The position numbers and the translations under genes are program-made. A stretch of DNA of 64,000 bases from Streptomyces sp. RPT161 (lineage in GTDB: Bacteria > Actinomycetota > Actinomycetes > Streptomycetales > Streptomycetaceae). The stretch spans positions 1 to 64,000 of the forward strand of contig NZ_JAPZVN010000028.1 of the NCBI RefSeq assembly GCF_027533845.1. Direction: 5' to 3'. Below are positions 2-39,197 of this stretch, in pieces; the stretch's first letter is position 1, and each line of letters opens with the position of its first letter. The notes under the pieces were generated by a model, which was not told the DNA's origin, made no database searches, and saw only the letters and a program-made list of their open reading frames with translations.

Positions 2-3000
2 CTGGTCCGCACCGGCGGCGACCTGGGGCCCTGGCTGGTGGAACGGCGGATCACCGCGATCTCCACTGTGCCAACTCTGGTCGCGCTCTGGCCTGTTGAG
101 TACCTGGAGCGGGTCCGGTTGGTGATCCTGGGCGGCGAGGCGTGCCCGCCCGAGCTGGTCGACCGGCTCTCCGCCGGACACCGCGAGCTGTGGAACACCT
201 ATGGCCCCACCGAAACCACCGTGGTGGCCTGCGCGGCACCTCTGCTGCCGGGCCAGCCGGTACGGATCGGCGCGCCGCTGGACGGATGGGACCTCGCGGT
301 GGTGGACGGTGACGGCCACCCCGTCCGCTGGGGCGAGAGCGGGGAGTTGCTGATCTCAGGGGTCGGCACCGCGCGCTACCTGGACCCGGCGAAGGACGCC
401 GAGCGGTTCCGTACGCACCCGGCCCTGCCCGGCGGACGCGTCTACCGCAGCGGCGACCGGGTACGTGCCGACCGAGAGGGCCTGGTCTTCCTCGGCCGCG
501 TGGACGAGCAGGTCAAACTGGCCGGCCGCCGGATCGAACTGGGCGAGATCGACGCGGCGTTGCGGGCGCTGCCGGGGATCGCGGCGGCCGCCGCGGCCGT
601 GCGGAGCACCGCCACCGGGGGACGGACGCTGGTCGGCTACCTGGTACCTGAACAGGCGCCGGGTACCACCGAGTTCGACACCGCCCTCGCACGCGAACGA
701 CTCCTGGAGCAGCTGCCGCACGCGCTCGTCCCCGTGCTCGCGCTCGTAGCCGAACTGCCGACCCGCACCTCCGGCAAGGTCGACCGCGACGCCCTGCCGT
801 GGCCCGTACCGCTCGCCGGGACGAGCGGCGAAGGCGGCCCCGAGGCCTCGTTGACCGGCACCGAAGCCTGGCTCGCCGAGCGGTGGCACGAGGTGCTGGG
901 CCTGCGAGTGTCCAGTGACAGTGACTTCTTCGCACTCGGTGGCGGCAGTCTCACCGCCGCCGCACTGGTGTCGGCGCTGCGCGAGCGCTACCCGGAGGTC
1001 TCGGTCGCCGACATCTACCGCCATCCCTCGCTGCGCGCACTGGCCGCACGGCTGGACGGATCGGCGCGGGGCTCCCGGTCACGACGCGAGGTGCGCCGGA
1101 CACCACGCCGCACCGGATTCGTCCAAAGCCTCGTGCTCGCCGGGCTGTTCGCGGTGACCGGGCTGCGCTGGCTGCTCGTCCTGGCCGCGATCGACAACAT
1201 CGCCGAACCGCTGCCGTGGGCCAGGCACACCTCGTGGTGGCTGGTCGCGGCCGGCTGGGTGGTGCTGTACAGCGCGCCCGCCCGAGTGGCGATCGGCGCG
1301 GGCGCGGCCCGACTGCTGACCCGCGGACTGCGCCCCGGCACCCATGCGCGAGGTGGCGGTACACATCTGCGCCTGTGGGCGGCGGAGCGGATCGCGGGCA
1401 CGTTCGGGGTGCCCGCGCTGCTCGGTACCCCTTGGGCCAGCCGCTACGCCCGTGCGCTGGGGTGTGCCGTCGGCCGCGACGTGGAACTGCACGCCATGCC
1501 GCCGGTCACCGGGCTGGCCGAGTTCGGCGACGGCTGCGCGGTCGAGCGGGAGGTCGACCTCGCCGGGTGGTGGCTGGACGGTGACCTGCTGCGGATCGGC
1601 GCGGTACGCGTCGGCGCCGGTGCCCGGGTGGCCGCCCGCAGCACACTGCTGCCCGGCGCGGTGATCGGCGACCGGGCCGAGGTGGCCGCTGGATCCAGCG
1701 TGCACGGCACGGTGCCGGACGGCCAGTTGTGGGCCGGCAGCCCGGCCCGGCCCGCCACCGAAGCCGGGCGCGACTGGCCTGCCCCACGGCACGGCACCTC
1801 GCGCCGGTGGCATGTCGCCTACGGCGCCGGGCTGTTGGGGTTCGCCGTACTGCCGTTGCTGGCCGCACTTCCGGCGGTCGCGCTGCTCGGCCGGGTCGCG
1901 GAGGGCACGACCACGTTGACCGCCTTGCTCGGCGAACTCCTGGCGTGGGCGGCCCCGGCCACCGTACTGGTGACGGTCTGCTACGCGGCACTGCTGGCCG
2001 GGGTGGTACGGCTGGCCGGGCGGGGTCTCACCCCCGGCTTCCACCCGGCGCACGGGCGGGCGGCGTGGTGCGCCTGGGTGACCACCCGGGCCATGGACCA
2101 GGCTCGCTCGGTCCTCTTCCCCGGCTACGCGAGCCTGTTCACCCCGGCGTGGCTGCGGCTGCTCGGTGCCTCGGTGGGGCGCCGGGCGGAGGTCTCCACC
2201 GCGCTGGTGCTACCGCGGTTGACCACCGTCGGCGACGGGGCGTTCCTGGCGGACGACACTCTGCTCGCGCCCCTCGAACTGCGCGGTGGATGGATGTACT
2301 TGGGGCGCTCGTCGGTCGGCTCTCGCGCGTTCGTCGGTAACTCCGGCATCGTCGGGCCGGACCGCCACGTACCCGACCGGGCGCTGATCGGGGTGCTCTC
2401 CGACGCCCCCGCGCACGCCGAACCCGGCACATCCTGGTTGGGGCGGCCCGGCGTCACCGTGGCCAGGGCCACCGACGACGCCGACCCGGCCCGCACCTTC
2501 GACCCGCCCCGGCGCCTGGTCGTGGCTCGGGCTGCGGTCGAACTGTGCCGCGTGCTACCGCTGTTGTGCGCCGCCGCGCTGGCCGACCTGGTGTTCGTGG
2601 CGATGCAGGAGGCGGTCGACCGCCTGGGCCGGCTGGCCGCGGGCGCGGTCTGCGGTGCGGTCCTACTGGTGGCGGGAGTGGTCGCCTGCCTGCTCACCAC
2701 CGCCGCGAAGTGGCTGCTGGTCGGCCGCTTCCGGACCGGCGAACACCCGCTGTGGAGCTCGTTCGTGTGGCGCAACGAACTGTACGACACCTTCGTCGAG
2801 TCACTGGCGATGCCGTGGTTGGGCACCGCCATCACCGGCACCCCGATGCTCAACGCCTGGCTGCGCACCCTCGGTGCGCGCATCGGCCGCGGTGTGTGGC
2901 TGGAAAGCCACTGGCTGCCGGAGACGGACCTGGTACGGCTGGACGACGCGGTGAGTGTCAACCGCGGATGCGTACTGCAAACGCACCTGTTCCACGACCG

Positions 3001-3199
3001 GTTGATGCGTGTCGACACGGTGCACGTACACCGCGGCGCCACCCTCGGCCCGAACTCCATCGTGCTACCGGGCGCGGCCGTCGGCACGGCGACCACGATC
3101 GGCCCCGCCTCCCTGGTCATGCGCGGCGAACAGGTGCCACCCGAATCCCGCTGGACAGGCAACCCGATCGCGGCGCACACCCCGGACGACGGCCGGTAG
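2..3199 (+). CDS. Pls/PosA-family nonribosomal peptide synthetase (A-T-membrane type), 5' truncated by window edge
   Basis: The reading frame is open from base 2, so the true start lies upstream; the first in-frame GTG (38) is internal to an adenylation domain. Counting from base 2, A-domain cores are visible: YGPTETT near residue 67, YRSGD near 148, a KLAGRRIELGEID stretch near 172 and TSGKVDR near 258. A carrier domain follows (GGGSL, phosphopantetheine Ser near 316). The C-terminal ~700 residues alternate three pairs of hydrophobic helices with three left-handed beta-helix (hexapeptide-repeat) modules. This A-T-(2TM-LbH)x3 plan is that of epsilon-poly-L-lysine synthetase and related homopoly(amino acid) synthetases, which have no ordinary condensation or thioesterase domain. 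The monomer cannot be predicted because half the specificity pocket lies outside the window. A strong terminator follows. Confidence 0.9.
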   Translation: MVRTGGDLGPWLVERRITAISTVPTLVALWPVEYLERVRLVILGGEACPPELVDRLSAGHRELWNTYGPTETTVVACAAPLLPGQPVRIGAPLDGWDLAVVDGDGHPVRWGESGELLISGVGTARYLDPAKDAERFRTHPALPGGRVYRSGDRVRADREGLVFLGRVDEQVKLAGRRIELGEIDAALRALPGIAAAAAAVRSTATGGRTLVGYLVPEQAPGTTEFDTALARERLLEQLPHALVPVLALVAELPTRTSGKVDRDALPWPVPLAGTSGEGGPEASLTGTEAWLAERWHEVLGLRVSSDSDFFALGGGSLTAAALVSALRERYPEVSVADIYRHPSLRALAARLDGSARGSRSRREVRRTPRRTGFVQSLVLAGLFAVTGLRWLLVLAAIDNIAEPLPWARHTSWWLVAAGWVVLYSAPARVAIGAGAARLLTRGLRPGTHARGGGTHLRLWAAERIAGTFGVPALLGTPWASRYARALGCAVGRDVELHAMPPVTGLAEFGDGCAVEREVDLAGWWLDGDLLRIGAVRVGAGARVAARSTLLPGAVIGDRAEVAAGSSVHGTVPDGQLWAGSPARPATEAGRDWPAPRHGTSRRWHVAYGAGLLGFAVLPLLAALPAVALLGRVAEGTTTLTALLGELLAWAAPATVLVTVCYAALLAGVVRLAGRGLTPGFHPAHGRAAWCAWVTTRAMDQARSVLFPGYASLFTPAWLRLLGASVGRRAEVSTALVLPRLTTVGDGAFLADDTLLAPLELRGGWMYLGRSSVGSRAFVGNSGIVGPDRHVPDRALIGVLSDAPAHAEPGTSWLGRPGVTVARATDDADPARTFDPPRRLVVARAAVELCRVLPLLCAAALADLVFVAMQEAVDRLGRLAAGAVCGAVLLVAGVVACLLTTAAKWLLVGRFRTGEHPLWSSFVWRNELYDTFVESLAMPWLGTAITGTPMLNAWLRTLGARIGRGVWLESHWLPETDLVRLDDAVSVNRGCVLQTHLFHDRLMRVDTVHVHRGATLGPNSIVLPGAAVGTATTIGPASLVMRGEQVPPESRWTGNPIAAHTPDDGR

Positions 3200-29882: not shown

Positions 29883-30185
29883 GTGGAATTACGCACGCCC
29901 GGCGGTGAATGGGATGCATTTCCCTCCGAGTTGTGTTCGGGGCGGGTGGGAATCCACGAACCAGATGGTGTGAATCCGCCGGGAAATGTCGCCGTCTTCT
30001 CGCTGAGGGACCGGTGGCGGCGCCCGCCGCCAGGCAGCGGCGAACTAGCTCCCGGTGCCGTCCGGCGAAAGCTTTCTGGGCGCAGGGCGGACAGGACATC
30101 GATGTCACCAACGCCCCGGCCGGACGCCGACGCAGATGTGAGTGCCGACGAAACGACACTCACACCCCAGGAGATCACGTGGTAA
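29883..30185 (+). CDS. Possible small upstream gene coupled to the synthetase operon, with an early TTA codon
   Basis: Starting at GTG 29883 (weak AGCGAGG about 8 nt upstream) the frame encodes 100 residues and stops at TAA 30183-30185, overlapping the GTG of the next gene. A TTA codon (29889-29891) sits at codon 3; in Streptomyces that would place it under bldA control. Early codon bias is poor and improves toward the end (DADADVSADETTLTPQEITW). An internal ATG at 30102 would give a 27-residue coupled leader. Not a recognisable MbtH protein. Low confidence. Confidence 0.3.
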   Translation: MELRTPGGEWDAFPSELCSGRVGIHEPDGVNPPGNVAVFSLRDRWRRPPPGSGELAPGAVRRKLSGRRADRTSMSPTPRPDADADVSADETTLTPQEITW

Positions 30186-32806
30186 GAGAACCAGCCGATG
30201 TCTCAGTCGACGCCGAACCGTCGACTCGGCAGGACGGCCGCACGGATCCGGCGAGAGCCGTCGAGAAGATCTACGCCGAGGTGTTGGCTGACATCCTGAG
30301 CGCCGAACGGCTCTGTGTGGAAAGCCACTTCTTCGACGAACTCGGCGCGGACTCCATGGTGATGGCACGCTTCTGCGCGCGCGTCAGGAAACGCACCGAC
30401 GTGCCGTCGGCGTCGATGAAGGACATCTACCAGCACACGACCATCCGAAGCCTGGCCACCGCACTCGCCGACGCCACATCAGCCCCTGTCGGACCGGCAG
30501 TCACGTCGCCGCCCCCGGAACCGGTCGTACCGGGCAGCACGACGCGGTACGTCCTCTGCGGAACGCTGCAGTTCATCGCCTTCCTCGCGTACTCCTACCT
30601 CACTGCGCTCGTCACCACGCGGGGCTACGGCTGGGTTGTTGCCGGGAAGGGGCCGTTGGCCTTCTACGGGCGCGCGGTTGCCTTCGGCGGGGCCTACCTG
30701 TCCGGGCTGTGTGTCTTCCCGGTCGTGGCCAAGTGGATCCTGATAGGCCGGTGGAAGCCACGCGAGTTCCCGGTCTGGAGCCTGACGTACCTGCGCTTCT
30801 GGATCGTCAAGTCCCTGGTGCACGCGAACCCGATGGTCTTCTTCGTCGGCAGTCCGCTGTACGTGCTGTATCTGCGGGCACTCGGCGCGCGGATCGGCAG
30901 ACAGGTCACGATCCTCTCCCGTACCGTGCCGGTGTGCACCGACCTGCTCACCGTCGGCGCGGGTACGGTCATCCGCAAGGACTCGTTCCTGCTGTGCTAC
31001 AGAGCGCACGCCGGGCGCATCCAGACCGGGCCGGTCACCCTCGGCCGGGATGTCTTCGTCGGTGAGCGGACCGTACTCGACATCAACACGTCGATGGGCG
31101 ACGGCGCACAACTGGGCCACACCTCCACGCTGCACAGCGGCCAGGCCGTACCGGCCGGTCAACGCTGGCACGGATCGCCGGCGCGGCGCACCGAGCTGAA
31201 CTACCTGAGGGTGGCGCCCGCCAGGTGCGGCAGAGCGCGGCGGACAGCGTTCGCCCTGTTCGCCCTGCTGAAGCCGGTCCTCGTGACGGTGCCGCTGACG
31301 GTCGTGTTCCTGTACGCACTGCTCAACGAGGTGCCGCTGCTGCTGGGCCAGTCGGACGCGGGGGCGGAGTCGGTCACCTCGTCCGCGTTCTACGTGGACG
31401 CACTGCTGCTGTGCACGGTGCTGTTCTTCGGCTTCGTCATCGCGGGACTCGGTGTGCTGTTCACCGTTCCGCGTCTGATGCGCCTGGTGATCGAACCGGG
31501 CAGGACCTACCCGCTGTACGGCTTCCGCTACGCGATGCACCGGGCGGTCGCGCGGATGACCAACCTCAGGTTCTACATCTGGCTGTTCGGCGACAGCTCC
31601 TACATAGTCCACTACCTCAAGTGCCTGGGGTACGACCTGTCCCAGGTCGAGCAGACGGGTTCGAACTTCGGCAGCGGGGTGCAGCACGAGACGCCGTATC
31701 TGAGTGTGGTCGGCAGCGGGACGATGGTCGCCGACGGGCTGTCGCTCATGAACGCGGACTACTCCAGCACGTCATTCCGGGTGTCCCGGACGTCGATCGG
31801 ATCGCGCAACTTCCTTGGGAACTTCATCGCCTACCCCCCGGAAGGCAGGACGGGTGACAACGTTCTCCTGGCGACCAAGGTGATGGTTCCGCTCGACGGA
31901 GGGATCCGTGAAGGCGTGGGTCTGCTGGGCTCGCCGTGCTTCGAGATTCCCCGGACGGTGGAGCGCGACACCCGCTTCGACCACCTCCGGGCCGGGAACG
32001 AGTTTCGCCGTCGTCTCACGGCGAAGAACCGCTACAACCTGCGCACCATGGGCATCGCCCTGTTCCTGCGGTGGCTGGACTTCCTGGTCCTCACCGCCCT
32101 CGGGCTCGCCACCATCGAGCGGTACGACGCGATCGGGCAGCTACTGGACACCGTGCTGCTGGTGGTCGGCCTCGGCTTCACCGCCGTGTACTTCGCCTTG
32201 GTGGAGCGGTGTCTGACGCGGTTCCGTCCGCTGCGGCCGATGGTGTGCTCCATCTACGACCCTTACTTCTGGCGGCACGAGCGCCTGTGGAAGGTGCCCG
32301 ACACCCACTTCGCCGCCTTCAACGGCACACCGTTCAAGAACATGCTCTGGCGGCTGCTGGGCGTCCGGCTCGGCAGGCGGGTCCTCGACGACGGTTGCTA
32401 CCTGACGGAGCGCACCCTCACCACCATCGGGGACGACTGCGTACTCAACGCCGGGAGCAAGATCCAGTGCCACTCGCAGGAGGACGGCACGTTCAAGTCC
32501 GACCACATCACGCTCGGTGCCAACTGCACCATCGGCGTCGGCGCGCTCGTCCACTACGGAGTGACGATGGGGGACGGTGCGGTACTCGCCGCAGACTCCT
32601 TTCTCATGAAGGGCGAGGAAGTCCCCGCGTACGCCCGGTGGGGCGGGAACCCCGCCATCCCGTTGCACCCGCACGGCAGCTTCGAGACTCCCGCGCCCCC
32701 GGTTCCCGGGAAGGCGGGATCGCGGCGGTGGTACGGAAAGCGAATCAAGGCCACTTCCCACCCGTGTCCAGCCGACCGCAGCGTCGAGAAGGTGAAGTCT
32801 CCATGA
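30179..32806 (+). CDS. Carrier-protein / Pls-type membrane synthetase lacking an adenylation domain
   Basis: An 875-residue protein from GTG 30179, with AGGAGA 5-6 nt upstream. Residues 25-100 are a carrier domain, FFDELGADSMVMARF (Ser59 phosphopantetheine site). After a Pro-rich linker the Pls/PosA-type region begins: helix pairs near 125-185, 425-500 and 630-690 alternate with three beta-helix modules, whose signatures include VTLGRDVFVGERTVLD, TSIGSRNFLGNF, and HITLGANCTIGVGALVHYGV. This is the C-terminal half of poly-lysine/poly-diaminopropionate synthetases without their A-domain. Its carrier must be charged in trans, presumably by the next gene, whose ATG overlaps its stop (ATGA). I infer membrane-bound peptide-bond formation and/or export. 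Confidence 0.85.
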   Translation: MVREPADVSVDAEPSTRQDGRTDPARAVEKIYAEVLADILSAERLCVESHFFDELGADSMVMARFCARVRKRTDVPSASMKDIYQHTTIRSLATALADATSAPVGPAVTSPPPEPVVPGSTTRYVLCGTLQFIAFLAYSYLTALVTTRGYGWVVAGKGPLAFYGRAVAFGGAYLSGLCVFPVVAKWILIGRWKPREFPVWSLTYLRFWIVKSLVHANPMVFFVGSPLYVLYLRALGARIGRQVTILSRTVPVCTDLLTVGAGTVIRKDSFLLCYRAHAGRIQTGPVTLGRDVFVGERTVLDINTSMGDGAQLGHTSTLHSGQAVPAGQRWHGSPARRTELNYLRVAPARCGRARRTAFALFALLKPVLVTVPLTVVFLYALLNEVPLLLGQSDAGAESVTSSAFYVDALLLCTVLFFGFVIAGLGVLFTVPRLMRLVIEPGRTYPLYGFRYAMHRAVARMTNLRFYIWLFGDSSYIVHYLKCLGYDLSQVEQTGSNFGSGVQHETPYLSVVGSGTMVADGLSLMNADYSSTSFRVSRTSIGSRNFLGNFIAYPPEGRTGDNVLLATKVMVPLDGGIREGVGLLGSPCFEIPRTVERDTRFDHLRAGNEFRRRLTAKNRYNLRTMGIALFLRWLDFLVLTALGLATIERYDAIGQLLDTVLLVVGLGFTAVYFALVERCLTRFRPLRPMVCSIYDPYFWRHERLWKVPDTHFAAFNGTPFKNMLWRLLGVRLGRRVLDDGCYLTERTLTTIGDDCVLNAGSKIQCHSQEDGTFKSDHITLGANCTIGVGALVHYGVTMGDGAVLAADSFLMKGEEVPAYARWGGNPAIPLHPHGSFETPAPPVPGKAGSRRWYGKRIKATSHPCPADRSVEKVKSP

Positions 32807-35800
32807 ACAGGTCATCCGAAACGGCCCGTGACTTCTGGCGCGACATGCTCGCCACGGGCGGATCCAGCGCCATCCCACGCTGGACTGGCAAGCCCACGGC
32901 GGGAGTCGCTGAGCACGAGGAAACCATCGCCGACGAACTCGCGGCGGCCCTGGGCCGGTTTACGGACGCCTGCGCGATACCGTTCGACGCGGTGCTGCTG
33001 TCCGCCCACGCGAAGGTGCTGGCGGCGCTGTGCGGGGAGCAGGAGGTCACGACCGGCTATGTCCTGGAGCCGGGCGGACCGGTGCTGCCATGCCGGCTGA
33101 CTACCAGACCTCTGTCATGGCGGGCGCTGCTGACGGACGCCCACCGCGTGATATCGGGGATGCGGTCGCACCAGGCCTTTCCCGTCGACGCCCTGCTGTG
33201 TGAACTGGGCCTGGCCCAGCCGCTGTTCGAGTGCGAATTCAGCGCGTCCGGCGACGGCGGCGCACTCGCCGAAGCCACAGTGCTGTCGGTGGCGTTCGCC
33301 CGACGCGACGGGCACCTGACGGTACGTTTGCGGTACCGCACGGAGGCCATCGACGCGGACCACGCCGCACGGATCGCGGGTTACCACCAGACCGCGCTGG
33401 CCCTGATGGCGGCTGACGTGGACGCCGCGCACGGACAGCAGAGCCTGCTGTCGGTGGATGAGCGTCGCTTCCAGCTGGAGGGGCTGGCCGGGCCGGTCCG
33501 CGAACTGCCCGACCGGCGGTTCCACGAGCTGTTCCAGGAGCGGGTTCGGACACACCCCGACGCCGTGGCCGTCGTCCGGGGCGAACGGCAGTGGACCTAT
33601 CGGGAACTCAACCAACGCGCCAACGTACTGGCCCGGGCGCTGCTGTCGCGAGGCCTCGGCCACGAAGGCGTCGTGGCGGTGGTCACCGAGCGCACCTTGG
33701 AATGGGCGGCCGCCGTCCTCGCGGTCTTCAAGGCGGGCGGCGTCTACCTGCCGATAGAGCCGCACTTTCCGGGCGAGCGGATCGCTGCCATGCTCTCGCG
33801 CGCCGGGTGCGAACTGGTCGTGACCGAACCCGGCAGCACCACCACCCTGGACGAGGCGCTGAAGTCGCTGCCCGAGGTGCGCACCCTGTTCGTCGAGGCG
33901 GCACTGGAGGAGGGGCACGCCGACGCCGACCTCGGCGTTGACGTGGCGGCGGATCAACTCGCCTATGTCTTCTTCACCTCCGGGTCCACCGGTGAGCCCA
34001 AGGGCGCGATGTGCGAGCACGCGGGGATGCTCAACCATCTGTACGCGAAGATCGGCGACCTGGGGATATCCCAGGGGCAGGCCGTGGCGCAGACAGCGCC
34101 GCAGTGCTTCGACATCTCGCTGTGGCAACTCGTCGCGGCGCTGCTGGTCGGTGGGCGGACCCTGCTGGTCGAGCAGGAGGCGATCCTGGACGTGGACCGG
34201 TTCGTGGACAGGATCGCCGAGGGACGCGTCGGGGTGCTGCAACTGGTGCCTTCGTATCTGGAGGCGGTGCTTTCCCATCTGGAGCGTCATCCGCGCGAGC
34301 TGCCCGACCTGCGATGTGTCTCGGTCACCGGCGAGGCACTGAAGAAGGAACTGGTGCAGCGCTGGTTCGCCGCCAAGCCGGGAGTCAGGCTCGTCAACGC
34401 CTACGGCCTGACCGAGACTTCGGACGACACCAACCACGAGGTCATGGACCGCGCTCCGAGCGGTGACCGGGTCCCACTGGGCCCGTGCGTCCCCAACGTC
34501 CGTGTCTACGTCGTCGACGACAACCTCTCGCCGGTGCCGCTGGGCGCACCCGGGGCGATCGTCTTCTCCGGGGTCTGCGTCGGCCGAGGCTACGTGAACG
34601 ACCCGGAGCGGACCCGGCAGGCCTTCACCAGCGACCCCCATCGCGAGGGCGAACGGCTCTACCAGGGCGGTGACTTCGGCCGCTGGCAGCCCGGCGGCAA
34701 GCTGGAGTTCCTCGGCCGCAGGGACAACCAGGTCAAGATCCGTGGCTTCCGGATCGAGATCGGTGACATCGAGAACGCACTGCTGCGGGTGCCCAGCGTA
34801 GGCGACTGCGCGGTGGTGGTCGCCGAACGGTCGGACCACAGCAAGCACCTCGTTGCCTTCTACCAGGCACCCCAGCCGCTCGAAGCGGAGGCCCTGCGGG
34901 ACCGGCTCGCCGCGACACTGCCCGCCTACATGGTGCCCAGCACCTTCCACTGGCGGGAACGACTGCCCCTGACCGCCAACAGCAAGATCGACACAAAGGC
35001 ACTGACCGCCCTCGCAGCGGAACTCGACACCGTCGGCGGGGACCACGGCGCCCCGCGCACACCGGTCGAGAAGCGGCTCGCGACGGCCTGGGCGAAGGTG
35101 CTCGGTGTGCCCGAAAGCCGGATCAGCAGGCAGGACAACTTCTTCCACAAAGGCGGCACGTCACTGTCGGCGGTGAAACTGGCCATCGAGCTGGACCGCG
35201 CCGTGACCCTGAAGGACATCACACGACACCCGGCCCTCGCCGAGCTGGCCCACCTGGTCGACGGACATGCCGAACGACGCTGCGGACTACTGCACACGCT
35301 GGGCGAGCCGGGCAGCGCGTTGACCGGCGATCTGGTGTGCTTCCCGTACGCCGGTGGCAACGCCGTCAACTTCCAGGCGATGGCCGCGGCGCTACGCGGA
35401 ACCGGGCTGGCGGTCCACGCCGTCGAGCTGCCCGGCCATGATCTGGCCGTCGAACACGAGCAGTTCGCCCCGCTGGAGCGGGTGGCCGAGCAGGTCGCCG
35501 CCGAGATCACTCGGCGCGGTCTGGCCCGGGTCCTCCTGTGGGGCCACTCAGCCGGCACCGCCGTCGCGGTGGAGACGGCCCGCCTGCTCCAGACGTCCGG
35601 GGTGCACGTCCAGAGGATCTTCCTGGGCGCCCAGCTGCTCGGCGACATCACCCACCGGCGCGCAGCCGTCGCCCGGCTGACCGAGATGAGCGAGGCCGAG
35701 ATCGCCAACGAGCTGACCGAGGAAATTGGCCACAGCGCACCAGGCGAGCTCGACGCGCGGCACGCCGAACACACCAGCGCCGCCTACCGACACGACTGCC

Positions 35801-36051
35801 TGTCCGCCAACCGCTACTTCGCCGACGTCCTGGCCGACCCTCCCGCGGTGAAGCTCACCGCACCGATCACCGTGGTGGTCGCCGCCGACGATCCCAGCAC
35901 GGCGCAGTTCCCGCACCGACACCGTGACTGGCAGCTCCTGGCGCACCAGGTCGACCTGTACGAACTCCCAGACGGGGGCCACTACTTCCACCGCACCCGC
36001 CCGGCCGCGGCCGCGCGGGCCGTACTGCGCGCGTCCGACCTCTTCGCCTGA
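32803..36051 (+). CDS. Nonribosomal peptide synthetase: half-condensation, A, T, TE
   Basis: A 1082-residue synthetase. Residues 1-225 resemble only the C-terminal half of a condensation domain; the catalytic HHxxxDG motif is absent. The A-domain (about 235-735) has FTSGSTGEPKG, FDISLWQ, NAYGLTETSDD, YQGGDFGRW and a catalytic-type Lys728. Pocket residues by alignment to GrsA are D437 I438 W441 Q480 S507 T509 A533 D541 D542 K728; the acidic pair would suit a basic side chain such as diaminopropionate. Carrier Ser787 lies in HKGGTSLSA. The C-terminal TE has GHSAG (Ser916) and GDLVCFPYAGG, resembling type II thioesterases. It overlaps the upstream gene by 4 nt. ATG 32803 is the true start; the open frame upstream is out-of-frame shadow. 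Confidence 0.9.
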   Translation: MNRSSETARDFWRDMLATGGSSAIPRWTGKPTAGVAEHEETIADELAAALGRFTDACAIPFDAVLLSAHAKVLAALCGEQEVTTGYVLEPGGPVLPCRLTTRPLSWRALLTDAHRVISGMRSHQAFPVDALLCELGLAQPLFECEFSASGDGGALAEATVLSVAFARRDGHLTVRLRYRTEAIDADHAARIAGYHQTALALMAADVDAAHGQQSLLSVDERRFQLEGLAGPVRELPDRRFHELFQERVRTHPDAVAVVRGERQWTYRELNQRANVLARALLSRGLGHEGVVAVVTERTLEWAAAVLAVFKAGGVYLPIEPHFPGERIAAMLSRAGCELVVTEPGSTTTLDEALKSLPEVRTLFVEAALEEGHADADLGVDVAADQLAYVFFTSGSTGEPKGAMCEHAGMLNHLYAKIGDLGISQGQAVAQTAPQCFDISLWQLVAALLVGGRTLLVEQEAILDVDRFVDRIAEGRVGVLQLVPSYLEAVLSHLERHPRELPDLRCVSVTGEALKKELVQRWFAAKPGVRLVNAYGLTETSDDTNHEVMDRAPSGDRVPLGPCVPNVRVYVVDDNLSPVPLGAPGAIVFSGVCVGRGYVNDPERTRQAFTSDPHREGERLYQGGDFGRWQPGGKLEFLGRRDNQVKIRGFRIEIGDIENALLRVPSVGDCAVVVAERSDHSKHLVAFYQAPQPLEAEALRDRLAATLPAYMVPSTFHWRERLPLTANSKIDTKALTALAAELDTVGGDHGAPRTPVEKRLATAWAKVLGVPESRISRQDNFFHKGGTSLSAVKLAIELDRAVTLKDITRHPALAELAHLVDGHAERRCGLLHTLGEPGSALTGDLVCFPYAGGNAVNFQAMAAALRGTGLAVHAVELPGHDLAVEHEQFAPLERVAEQVAAEITRRGLARVLLWGHSAGTAVAVETARLLQTSGVHVQRIFLGAQLLGDITHRRAAVARLTEMSEAEIANELTEEIGHSAPGELDARHAEHTSAAYRHDCLSANRYFADVLADPPAVKLTAPITVVVAADDPSTAQFPHRHRDWQLLAHQVDLYELPDGGHYFHRTRPAAAARAVLRASDLFA

Positions 36052-36113
36052 ACCGCGCAGAGAGGCGAACGGCCCGCAGGGACACGAGCCATCCGCGACG
36101 AAAAGGACGACAC

Positions 36114-37118
36114 ATGCCATCATCACCCCCAACCCCCCTGCTCGACCTGGAAGTGAGCCCCGGTAGACCGCCTCTGCTGCGGGCCGAAGCCCGGGGCGCC
36201 GGGCGGGAGTGGGCGGCCGAGCATCGCGACGCACTACGCGCCGTCGTCGCCGAGCACGGCTCGGTACTGGTCCGCGGGCTCGGGCTGCTCGACACCGCGG
36301 GAGCCGGTGCCGTCTTCCGGGAGATAGGAAGCGGACTGCTGCCCGAGGCGGAGCCCTTCGCACCCCGGCTGCCGTTCGGCGACGGTGTGCACTCCTCGAC
36401 GAAGTGGCCGCAGAACCAGCAGATGTGCATGCACCACGAGCTGAGCTACCGGCTGGAGTTCCCCGGCCTGATGCTGTTCGCCTGCCTGACCGCGCCCGCC
36501 GTCGGCGGGGCGACCACCGTGGCCGACGCGCCTTCGGTGCTGGAGGCCTTGCCGGCCGCGTTGGTCGAGCGGTTCGAACGGGACGGCTGGCTGCTCACCC
36601 GCACCTACAACGAGGAGATCGGAGCCTCCGTCGCCGAGGCCTTCGGCACCGAGGACCGGCATGCGGTCGAGACCTACTGCCGGGCGAACGCGATCGACTT
36701 CGACTGGCAGCCGGACGGCGGACTGCGCACCCGCCAACGGCGCAGCGCCGTGCTGCGGCACCCGGTCAGCGGCCGACGCTGCTGGTTCAACCAGGTCGCC
36801 TTCCTCAACGAGTGGACCATCGCCGAGGAAGTGCGTGAATACCTCCTGGACGTCTACGGCCCCGACGGACTGCCGTTCAACACCTCCTTCGGCAACGGGG
36901 ATCCGATCGACAAGGACATCGTGGAACTGCTGAACGCGGTCTACGAGGACCACACGCTGCGCGAGCCCTGGCAGGACGGCGACCTGCTCATCGTCGACAA
37001 CATCCGTACCGCACACGGCAGGGAACCCTTCGAAGGACCACGCGAAGTGGTCGTCGCCATGACCGACAAGACCCAGCTGGCCGACTGCGACCCCACCGTG
37101 GAGGTGACCGCCCAGTGA
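36114..37118 (+). CDS. TauD/SyrP-like Fe(II)/2-oxoglutarate dioxygenase
   Basis: A 334-residue enzyme. The facial triad is readable: H107-x-E109 in MCMHHELSY and distal His301 in IRTAHGRE, with Arg310 for 2-oxoglutarate. Such enzymes hydroxylate or epoxidise amino acids, often while bound to a carrier protein (SyrP-like aspartyl hydroxylation; DdaC epoxidation in dapdiamide synthesis). Glu rather than Asp in HxD/E is usual for the SyrP-type branch. It sits 62 nt after the NRPS and overlaps sbnB-like by 4 nt, so it should act on the diaminopropionate unit or its product. ATG 36114 follows AAGGA. Confidence 0.88.
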   Translation: MPSSPPTPLLDLEVSPGRPPLLRAEARGAGREWAAEHRDALRAVVAEHGSVLVRGLGLLDTAGAGAVFREIGSGLLPEAEPFAPRLPFGDGVHSSTKWPQNQQMCMHHELSYRLEFPGLMLFACLTAPAVGGATTVADAPSVLEALPAALVERFERDGWLLTRTYNEEIGASVAEAFGTEDRHAVETYCRANAIDFDWQPDGGLRTRQRRSAVLRHPVSGRRCWFNQVAFLNEWTIAEEVREYLLDVYGPDGLPFNTSFGNGDPIDKDIVELLNAVYEDHTLREPWQDGDLLIVDNIRTAHGREPFEGPREVVVAMTDKTQLADCDPTVEVTAQ

Positions 37119-38173
37119 CCACCCATGCTGCGCCGGGGGCTGAAGAACCGGCCGGTGTACCGCCGTTCGCGGTGATCCCCGGGGCCCAGGTTCACCAGGC
37201 TCTGTACGGCCGGGAGAAGCAGGTGACGGAACTCGTCGAGGCCGCCTACCGGTTGCACGCGGACGGAGAGTCGGTCAACCCGCCCTCGTACTTCCTGCGG
37301 TTTCCCGACCGGCCCTCGTCCCGGATCATCGCGCTGCCCGCCTCGATCGGCGGCGACCTACGGGTCGACGGCCTGAAGTGGATCTCCAGCTTCCCACAGA
37401 ACGTGGCGGCGGGCATCCCACGGGCCTCGGCGGTGCTGATCCTCAACGACCACACCACCGGCTACCCCTTCGCCTGCCTGGAAAGCTCCATCATCAGCGC
37501 CACCCGTACCGCCGCCTCAGCCGCACTCGCCGCCGACCACCTCAGCCGTACCCGGCGACGCCCCACCCGTATCGGGTTCTTCGGCACCGGACTGATCGCC
37601 CGCTACATCCACGGCTACCTTGCCGGCACCGGCTGGGCATTCGAGCACATAGGCGTCCACGACCTGTCCGCCGACAGCGCCAGCGGCTTTCGTACCTACC
37701 TCGAACAGTCAGGGGCCTCCGCCGCGGTCACCGTGCACAACAGCCCCGAACAACTCATCCGTTGCAGCGACCTGATCGTCTTCGCCACCATCGCCGGCAC
37801 ACCCCACGTCCACGACGTGCGCTGGTTCGACCACCACCCCCTGGTGCTGCACATCTCCCTGCGGGACCTCGCTCCCGAAACCCTGCTCACCTGCGCCAAC
37901 TTCGTGGACGACGTCGACCACTGCCTCAAGGCCGACACCTCACCCCATCTCGCCGAAAAGCTCACCGGCACCAGGGACTTCATCACCGGAACCCTCAACG
38001 ACGTCATCACGGGCCAGGTACCCGCACCCGACGACCGGACCGTGGTGTTCTCCCCCTTCGGACTCGGCGTCCTCGACCTCGCCGTCGGCAAATACGTCTA
38101 CGACGCGGTCACCAGCTCCGGAGAACTCAATGTCATCCCCGACTTCTTCCACGAACTGCGCAGGTACGGGTGA
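37115..38173 (+). CDS. sbnB: SbnB-like N-(1-amino-1-carboxy-2-ethyl)-glutamate dehydrogenase (L-2,3-diaminopropionate synthesis)
   Basis: A 352-residue member of the ornithine cyclodeaminase/mu-crystallin superfamily. The N-terminal half has YFLRFPDRPSSRIIALPASI and KWISSFPQN, typical of SbnB; the NAD-binding fold is marked by RIGFFGTGLIARYIHGYLAG. In staphyloferrin B synthesis SbnB oxidatively cleaves the SbnA product to L-2,3-diaminopropionate and 2-oxoglutarate. GTG 37115 overlaps the dioxygenase stop. The adjacent sbnA makes the assignment secure at pathway level. Confidence 0.92.
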   Translation: MTTHAAPGAEEPAGVPPFAVIPGAQVHQALYGREKQVTELVEAAYRLHADGESVNPPSYFLRFPDRPSSRIIALPASIGGDLRVDGLKWISSFPQNVAAGIPRASAVLILNDHTTGYPFACLESSIISATRTAASAALAADHLSRTRRRPTRIGFFGTGLIARYIHGYLAGTGWAFEHIGVHDLSADSASGFRTYLEQSGASAAVTVHNSPEQLIRCSDLIVFATIAGTPHVHDVRWFDHHPLVLHISLRDLAPETLLTCANFVDDVDHCLKADTSPHLAEKLTGTRDFITGTLNDVITGQVPAPDDRTVVFSPFGLGVLDLAVGKYVYDAVTSSGELNVIPDFFHELRRYG

Positions 38174-38210
38174 ACGAGCGCCATACCGCGACCGACGAGG
38201 GGAGGGCGCC

Positions 38211-39197
38211 GTGCGCGTCATAACCGCTCCCATGGACTTCAACGAGGAGGAACTCTACGTCGACCTGCGGCCCATGACCGGTCACCGCGTCCTCCTCAAG
38301 TGCGAAGGCTTCAACTTCGCGGGCTCGATCAAACTCAAGGCCGCCAGCGCGATGGTGGAAGCCGCGGAACGCAGCGGCGCCCTCACGCCGGAATCGACCC
38401 TCGTCGAATCCTCCTCGGGCAACCTCGGCGTGGCTCTCAGCATGATCGCCGCCAGCAAGGGCTACCGCTTCCTGTGCGTCACCGACGCCCGCTGCAACCT
38501 GTCCACCCGGCGCATGATGGAAGCACTCGGCAGCCAGGTCCACATCATCACCGAACCGTCGGCCACCGGTGGCCTGCTCGGCGCACGGATCGACCACGTA
38601 CGCGCGCTCTGCGCCGCGGACGACCGGTACGTCTGGCTCGACCAGTACACCAACCCGGCCAACTGGAAAGCGCACTACCGCACCACCGCACCAGCCATCG
38701 CCCGACGCTTCCCACGCCTCGACGTGCTGTTCGTCGGAGCCGGTACCACCGGCACCCTGATGGGTTGCGCACGCTACTTCCGTGACTCGCACCATCCGGC
38801 GCGCGTCGTCGCGGTCGACACCGTCGGATCGGTGGCCTTCGGCGGTCCACCCGCCCGCCGGATGATCCCCGGCCTGGGGACCAGCGTGCGCCCACCCATC
38901 CTGGACGAGTCATACGTTGACGAAGTCATCCGGGTCGAGGAGGCGGATGCCATCCGCACCTGTCACCGCCTGGCACGAAGCGGATTCCTCTTCGGCGGCT
39001 CCACCGGAACCGTCGTCAGCGGTGCCACCGACTGGCTGGGCCGGCACGACGCGGAGCACCTCACCGCCGTTGCCATCGCCCCCGACCTGGGCGAACGCTA
39101 CCTCGACACCATCTACCAGACCAACTGGGTACAGGACCTCTACGGCGAACACCTGCTGCGAACGGAGGAACTCACCGTCGACGCCCGCAGACCCTGA
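38211..39197 (+). CDS. sbnA: SbnA-like N-(2-amino-2-carboxyethyl)-L-glutamate synthase (L-2,3-diaminopropionate synthesis)
   Basis: A 328-residue PLP enzyme of the cysteine-synthase fold. FNFAGSIKLKAA gives the Schiff-base Lys41, SSGNLGVALS is the substrate loop and GAGTTGTLMG the phosphate-binding loop. SbnA condenses O-phosphoserine with glutamate to the SbnB substrate. GTG 38211 follows GGGAGG by 5 nt, 37 nt after sbnB; ATG 38232 is an alternative. Last gene of the operon; a strong terminator follows. Confidence 0.92.
   Translation: MRVITAPMDFNEEELYVDLRPMTGHRVLLKCEGFNFAGSIKLKAASAMVEAAERSGALTPESTLVESSSGNLGVALSMIAASKGYRFLCVTDARCNLSTRRMMEALGSQVHIITEPSATGGLLGARIDHVRALCAADDRYVWLDQYTNPANWKAHYRTTAPAIARRFPRLDVLFVGAGTTGTLMGCARYFRDSHHPARVVAVDTVGSVAFGGPPARRMIPGLGTSVRPPILDESYVDEVIRVEEADAIRTCHRLARSGFLFGGSTGTVVSGATDWLGRHDAEHLTAVAIAPDLGERYLDTIYQTNWVQDLYGEHLLRTEELTVDARRP

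Follow-up and report, generated by a model that had tools for sequence, protein, structure and literature searches.

How can a membrane protein that resembles a homopoly(amino acid) synthetase work when it carries no adenylation (A) domain with which to activate its monomer? This question is raised by an operon of Streptomyces sp. RPT161, which lies in a window of 64,000 nucleotides (positions 1 to 64,000 of contig NZ_JAPZVN010000028.1, contig C61 in our numbering of this 7.7-Mb Streptomycetaceae genome). Its five genes, all on the + strand, encode a membrane protein of the Pls/PosA type (gene 1, Pls), a protein with A, thiolation (T) and thioesterase (TE) domains (gene 2, ATTE), a TauD-type oxygenase (gene 3), and the two components of a diaminopropionate (Dap) synthase, SbnB and SbnA (genes 4 and 5). 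We propose, with moderate confidence, that the operon is a self-contained, split Dap polymer synthetase in which oxidised Dap is fed in trans to a membrane polymeriser.

Architecture and conservation of the operon

The initial annotation placed a five-gene operon at 30179-39197, and we found all genes there, forming one unit. The stop codon of gene 1 and the start codon of gene 2 overlap as ATGA at 32803-32806, the coupling that the annotation had described, and genes 3 and 4 overlap as GTGA. Published work confirms that known homopoly(amino acid) synthetases are single-chain enzymes (PMC4668381, PMC10522769), whereas the present one is split. As annotated, its membrane part has only a carrier domain and adenylation resides in a separate protein: our domain search found AMP-binding in gene 2 and none in the 875-residue product of gene 1. 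That product has its carrier directly before a membrane domain that matches TIGR02353 over the full length of the model (808 bits, cut-off 423, positions 1-695 of 695). The carrier serine, Ser59, is invariant in 81 of 81 sequences, and Q763-x-H765-x-x-E768-D769 in the membrane domain is likewise invariant in 81.

How general is this arrangement? A species-wide scan, with one genome per bacterial and archaeal species, gave 535 relatives of gene 1, of which the best 80 are our named loci (79 in Streptomyces, one in Kutzneria). The search for the gene order that the annotation had called for found Pls-ATTE-TauD-SbnB-SbnA in all 80, with 73 operons complete and 7 cut by contig ends, and SbnA and SbnB are adjacent in every one of the 73. 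In a family-level sample of 395 Streptomycetaceae genomes, a close homologue of gene 1 occurs in 81 (about a fifth), at 91 places. Co-conservation of genes 1 and 2, on which the annotation had staked its reading beforehand, is strictly kept: a gene-2 homologue is adjacent in 73 of 73 uncut named loci and at 77 of the 91 places. Moreover, protein distances co-vary whichever two of the five genes are paired, with r 0.64-0.87, where permutation gave at most 0.18. The five-gene arrangement is far beyond chance. Locus L051 is an exception that keeps genes 1, 3, 4 and 5 and lacks gene 2, and no sixth or flanking gene recurs among 17 loci compared (that of the window and 16 others).

The nearest relatives of gene 1 (42-56% identity) are single-chain A-T-TIGR02353 proteins of about 1350-1500 residues, against 875 here, from Paenarthrobacter, Pseudonocardia, Skermanella, Shinella, Rhizobium and three sampled actinobacterial genomes. 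Their A-domain pockets are mostly DFECLSVVTK or DFEALGT, the exceptions being DAESIGT (L183) and a DLE type (Pseudonocardia). Phenylalanine at pocket position 2 marks synthetases of poly-Dap and poly-diaminobutyrate (poly-Dab), and glutamate at position 3 is reported to be conserved in cationic homopoly(amino acid) synthetases (PMC10522769). A DFE pocket alone does not define the subfamily, since L041, a canonical-type protein of the window's own genome, has one too. The motifs of the membrane half are more distinctive: Q[CASP]HSQEDGTFKS occurs in 80 of 80 named loci, as opposed to QTHLF[HE]DR in 15 of 15 canonical single-chain synthetases, with Q763, H765 and D769 common to both. Similarly, the carrier motif is LGA[DN]S in all split operon proteins and fused relatives but LGGxSL in canonical Pls. 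In the tree, the gene-1 subfamily is set apart from canonical Pls at 100/100; it gives no order of fusion versus fission inside the subfamily. One fused relative adjoins ectB (diaminobutyrate supply) and another a phosphopantetheinyl transferase gene, while those on two Pseudonocardia plasmids adjoin a TauD gene, the one compared being 54% identical to the window protein.

Some relatives of gene 1 show further variation. Two or three tandem carriers occur in L155 (on a Pseudonocardia plasmid), L157, L189 and L191. Orphan A-less or single-chain relatives, mostly plasmid-borne, lie near metal-handling genes in L157 (S. mirabilis pI), L174 (a plasmid of Streptomyces CdTB01), L153 and L191; these genes encode cation diffusion facilitators, CopC, DUF305, mntH and a P-type ATPase. 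A link of cationic polymers to metal tolerance is conceivable.

Table 1. Features of the operon in the window
Feature	Position	Strand	Basis and remarks
Gene 1 (Pls), A-less Pls/PosA-type membrane polymeriser (putative)	30179..32806	+	GTG start; carrier residues 35-96 (Ser59) and TIGR02353 126-826; PP-binding and Hexapep matches
Carrier domain of gene-1 protein	30281..30466	+	Pfam PF00550, residues 35-96; LGADSM motif (LGA[DN]S type)
Q-C-H-S-Q-E-D subfamily signature, third soluble segment of gene-1 protein	32465..32485	+	Motif comparison
Gene 2 (ATTE), half-C/A/T/TE protein	32803..36051	+	AMP-binding, PP-binding and Thioesterase matches; pocket DIWQSTADDK
C-terminal lobe of condensation domain in gene 2, without HHxxxDG	32803..33477	+	Model alignment to C domains of PvdL and LgrA
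Thioesterase domain of gene 2, GHSAG with Asp1030/His1060	35332..35988	+	PF00975
Gene 3, TauD-type Fe(II)/2-oxoglutarate oxygenase, H107-x-E109...H301, R310	36114..37118	+	PF02668 5.5e-46
Gene 4, SbnB-type Dap synthase component (predicted also to yield 2-oxoglutarate)	37115..38173	+	TIGR03944 416 bits, cut-off 327
Gene 5, SbnA-type Dap synthase component (PLP)	38211..39197	+	GTG start; TIGR03945 386 bits, cut-off 350

The neighbours of the operon are ordinary genes (HSP90, DNA glycosylase, photolyase, strictosidine-synthase-like). The window also holds a second TIGR02353 gene (38-3199), of canonical type (A-T-membrane, QTHLFHDR) and cut by the contig start; the genome has five such genes in total. 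Upstream of the operon, regulation by an iron box was considered and rejected, as each of the 81 upstream regions has at least 8 mismatches to it. Conserved upstream 8-mers were likewise rejected as an operator; they belong to the ribosome-binding site and to the remains of a TauD sequence. This decayed TauD fragment (residues ~170-209) precedes the membrane gene in many operons, lying ~130-260 bases before the first gene (L061, L065-L067, L069 and L075 among them). Its exactly shared core, GAGTGGCA, has 32 occurrences in the upstream regions. The fragment may have been left behind by an earlier gene order, or it may have been retained for a regulatory role.

Predicted supply, activation and oxidation of diaminopropionate

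Where would the monomer come from? SbnA and SbnB both score above the equivalog cut-offs of their models (Table 1), so that Dap supply appears to be encoded in the operon, as first annotated, and the prediction that the pair makes Dap is a strong one. A second SbnA/SbnB pair of the same genome (L038, contig C49, 111000-130000; 62% and 69% identical) adjoins a different nonribosomal peptide synthetase (NRPS) with pockets DPIQLGIIWK and DAWDVGVNAK.

The A domain of gene 2 is the probable point of entry for Dap. All ten residues of its pocket, DIWQSTADDK, are invariant in the named loci; distant homologues, some of them in other clusters, have the same pocket except for a single A-to-T. Since this pocket differs from the D-x-E pockets of the single-chain synthetases, the A domain of gene 2 seems to be a substitute drawn from a different NRPS lineage rather than the severed native A domain of the polymerase. 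The annotated idea of a membrane polymeriser fed in trans fared unevenly: the split layout, the co-conservation and the kinship of the A domain with solved Dap/Dab-type domains argue for it, but that A domain does not appear to be of the polymerase's own lineage.

What does this A domain activate? Among solved structures, the pocket region is closest to the Dap-bound A3 domain of sulfazecin synthesis (9n1u, 4.5e-40), with the PvdL A3 domain also ranking high. Read by hand, the nine pocket residues are DIWQSTADD here and DIWELTADD in PvdL (7/9 shared), while the sulfazecin A3 pocket, DVWEMNADD, shares only 5/9. PvdL builds Glu-Tyr-Dab (PMC12195549), and its solved chain, with the order E-C-A, would correspond to the Dab module. 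The presence of SbnA and SbnB in the operon makes Dap the most likely substrate of gene 2, and activation of Dap by its product is a well-supported prediction.

The remaining parts of the gene-2 protein are less constant. The first ~225 residues correspond only to the C-terminal lobe of an NRPS condensation (C) domain, which agrees with the half-C of the initial annotation, and 79 of 80 gene-2 homologues lack the HHxxxD motif. Some complete operons do without the half-C part, and about nine uncut named loci, as well as L042, have no thioesterase. Where the thioesterase is present, its triad is nearly always kept. Thus, both parts are dispensable, because intact operons exist that lack them. 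A and T, in contrast, are present in every uncut named operon, and the carrier serine is invariant. More distant A-T-TE homologues with the same pocket (A domain 57-58% identical) occur in L180 and L193, where a TauD and a divergent homologue of SbnA lie in the same cluster. The L180 cluster further contains methylaspartate mutase E, a GHMP kinase, a lyase and an ATP-grasp amino-acid ligase.

The oxygenase is equally well kept: the TauD ligands H107, E109 and H301, together with R310, are invariant in 78 (77) sequences. In the Staphylococcus pathway, SbnB releases one 2-oxoglutarate per Dap, and use of this 2-oxoglutarate as TauD co-substrate would be an attractive coupling. For S. albulus, a different finding is reported (PMC4668381). 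In S. scabies, SbnB adjoins SbnA and an NRPS (PMC11479980), and this locus may be an instance of the present operon.

A proposed mechanism and its rivals

How might the five proteins work together? SbnA and SbnB would make L-Dap, releasing 2-oxoglutarate. The A domain of gene 2 would activate Dap and load its own carrier, and would also load the carrier of gene 1 in trans, either directly or, where a thioesterase is present, via a thioesterase shuttle. TauD would oxidise carrier-bound Dap with 2-oxoglutarate, and the membrane domain of gene 1 would join the residues through the side-chain amine and pass the chain to or across the membrane. We infer trans loading because genes 1 and 2 are co-conserved, gene 1 lacks an A domain and Ser59 is invariant. 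Oxidation on the carrier is suggested by the family and linkage of TauD. Isopeptide polymerisation would follow from kinship with poly-Dap/poly-Dab-type synthetases and from the retained Q-x-H...D signature, and export of the chain by the same domain may be a further role.

Several observations weigh against this reading. Orphan A-less homologues of gene 1 without an adjacent A gene exist (L052, L174, L189, L191, L192, L194), and the soluble-domain signature of the gene-1 protein is unlike that of the proven poly-lysine-type enzymes. An AlphaFold model of this protein has six long helices in pairs, but its mean pLDDT is 43, the alignment being too shallow and too uniform, and we dropped it for claims on the fold. 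Hydroxylation of Dap at the beta position would give, if the beta-amine is free, an unstable hemiaminal. Finally, an A-T(-TE)-TauD-SbnB-SbnA sub-cassette also occurs without gene 1, in L178, L179, L181 and L182, and therefore oxidised Dap could serve uses other than a polymer. The sub-cassette adjoins multi-domain NRPS genes in L179, other A-containing proteins and ABC exporters in L181 and L182, and DAHP synthase in L178. This suggests that it may deliver an oxidised Dap unit to various acceptors, of which the membrane polymeriser would be one. Since the cassette is also used without the membrane gene, TauD may act on the A-T-bound monomer and not on the polymer. L178 and L181 have a second TauD next to SbnA. 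Dehydro-residues of the enamidonin/bolagladin kind were considered as the product and rejected; in bolagladin it is an enzyme of the acyl-CoA-dehydrogenase type, and not a TauD, that makes the residue.

The same sub-cassettes are what lends some weight to a small-molecule pathway, in which A-T-TE holds Dap, TauD oxidises it and the thioesterase frees oxidised Dap as an antimetabolite or building block, with the membrane protein only exporting it or conjugating one copy to something else. An A-T-TE protein with an oxygenase is textbook logic for release of a modified amino acid. However, each of the uncut named operons without a thioesterase keeps the membrane gene and its carrier serine, and a carrier on the membrane protein implies a thioester handover rather than export of a free molecule; we consider this pathway unlikely. 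Could a split enzyme instead make plain or comb-like poly-Dap, while TauD has a different substrate or serves just to consume the 2-oxoglutarate of SbnB? Streptomyces is known to make poly-Dap and a branched Dap-on-Dap polymer (PMC4668381, PMC9606270), and the adjacent SbnA/SbnB homologues of S. albulus PD-1 lie apart from the synthetase gene (PMC4668381). The strict invariance of the TauD ligands, the presence of the gene in every complete named operon and its recurrence beside single-chain synthetases in Pseudonocardia make this quite improbable.

We give even less credence to Dlt-like modification of the envelope, whereby the membrane domain would move activated (oxidised) Dap from the carrier to an envelope polymer or lipid and so add positive charge. 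An A domain, a carrier and a membrane acyltransferase do recall the DltA/DltC/DltB layout, the gene-1 protein has hexapeptide acyltransferase repeats, and some orphan or fused relatives lie near metal transport and membrane-protein genes. Yet the pockets of the nearest single-chain relatives are of the poly-Dap/poly-Dab type, no envelope gene is conserved beside the operon among the 17 loci, and the Pfam/NCBIfam matches of the five proteins include no MBOAT family, to which the acyltransferase DltB of the Dlt system belongs.

If the split-synthetase reading is right, what would it mean? With selection, loading and polymerisation combined in one membrane protein, single-chain synthetases are difficult to take apart experimentally. 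A natural split would allow loading, oxidation and polymerisation to be assayed and swapped separately, and would make isopeptide-bond formation by the TIGR02353 domain testable. In the open-licence papers searched, with most subscription journals outside the search, we found neither a split, oxygenase-linked synthetase nor a product for this gene set or pocket code. The cassette is frequent, being present in roughly one in five of the sampled Streptomycetaceae genomes, and these papers report no product, so that a widespread metabolite, probably cationic, may have escaped notice. More tentatively, the operon could stand for two-component poly(amino acid) synthetases as a class widespread in actinobacteria, with a stand-alone NRPS A-T module and an on-carrier oxygenase charging a membrane polymeriser in trans; their product would be an isopeptide polymer of oxidised Dap, distinct from the cationic homopolymers now known.

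Relation to known systems

Parts of this logic are found elsewhere. In syringomycin synthesis, SyrB1, SyrB2 and SyrC provide a stand-alone A-T protein, an iron oxygenase acting on the carrier-bound amino acid and a hydrolase-fold shuttle to another carrier; in the operon, by comparison, the shuttle-like domain is a dispensable serine thioesterase and the receiver is a membrane protein. The sulfazecin NRPS has the closest solved A domain, Dap-bound and with a related pocket, and its pathway likewise employs a thioesterase, together with a TauD oxygenase that works on the Dap residue. The operon, however, has no further NRPS module or complete condensation domain, and its partner is the putative membrane polymeriser; no N-sulfotransferase of the sulfazecin type is among the five recurring genes, and the flanks are not conserved. 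In streptothricin synthesis (ORF18/ORF19), as proposed here, a stand-alone A domain feeds a diamino-acid homo-oligomer, but chain growth on a primed carrier is the work of ORF19 itself, and a TIGR02353 domain is not described there (PMC9606270).

The closest parallel remains with Pls, PosA and the poly-Dap synthetase of S. albulus PD-1, which share with the operon a carrier followed by a TIGR02353 membrane domain and, probably, a diamino acid substrate. These synthetases hold their A domain in the chain, with a D-x-E pocket; in the operon it sits in a separate half-C/A-T-TE protein, apparently of another lineage, with the pocket DIWQSTADDK. The oxygenase and Dap genes are linked here, whereas the Dap genes of S. 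albulus are unlinked to its synthetase (PMC4668381). Thus, the membrane half of the operon is like that of a cationic homopoly(amino acid) synthetase, but two traits that define this family, the in-chain A domain and the D-x-E pocket, are missing. What we claim is that the operon works like such a synthetase, not that it is one.

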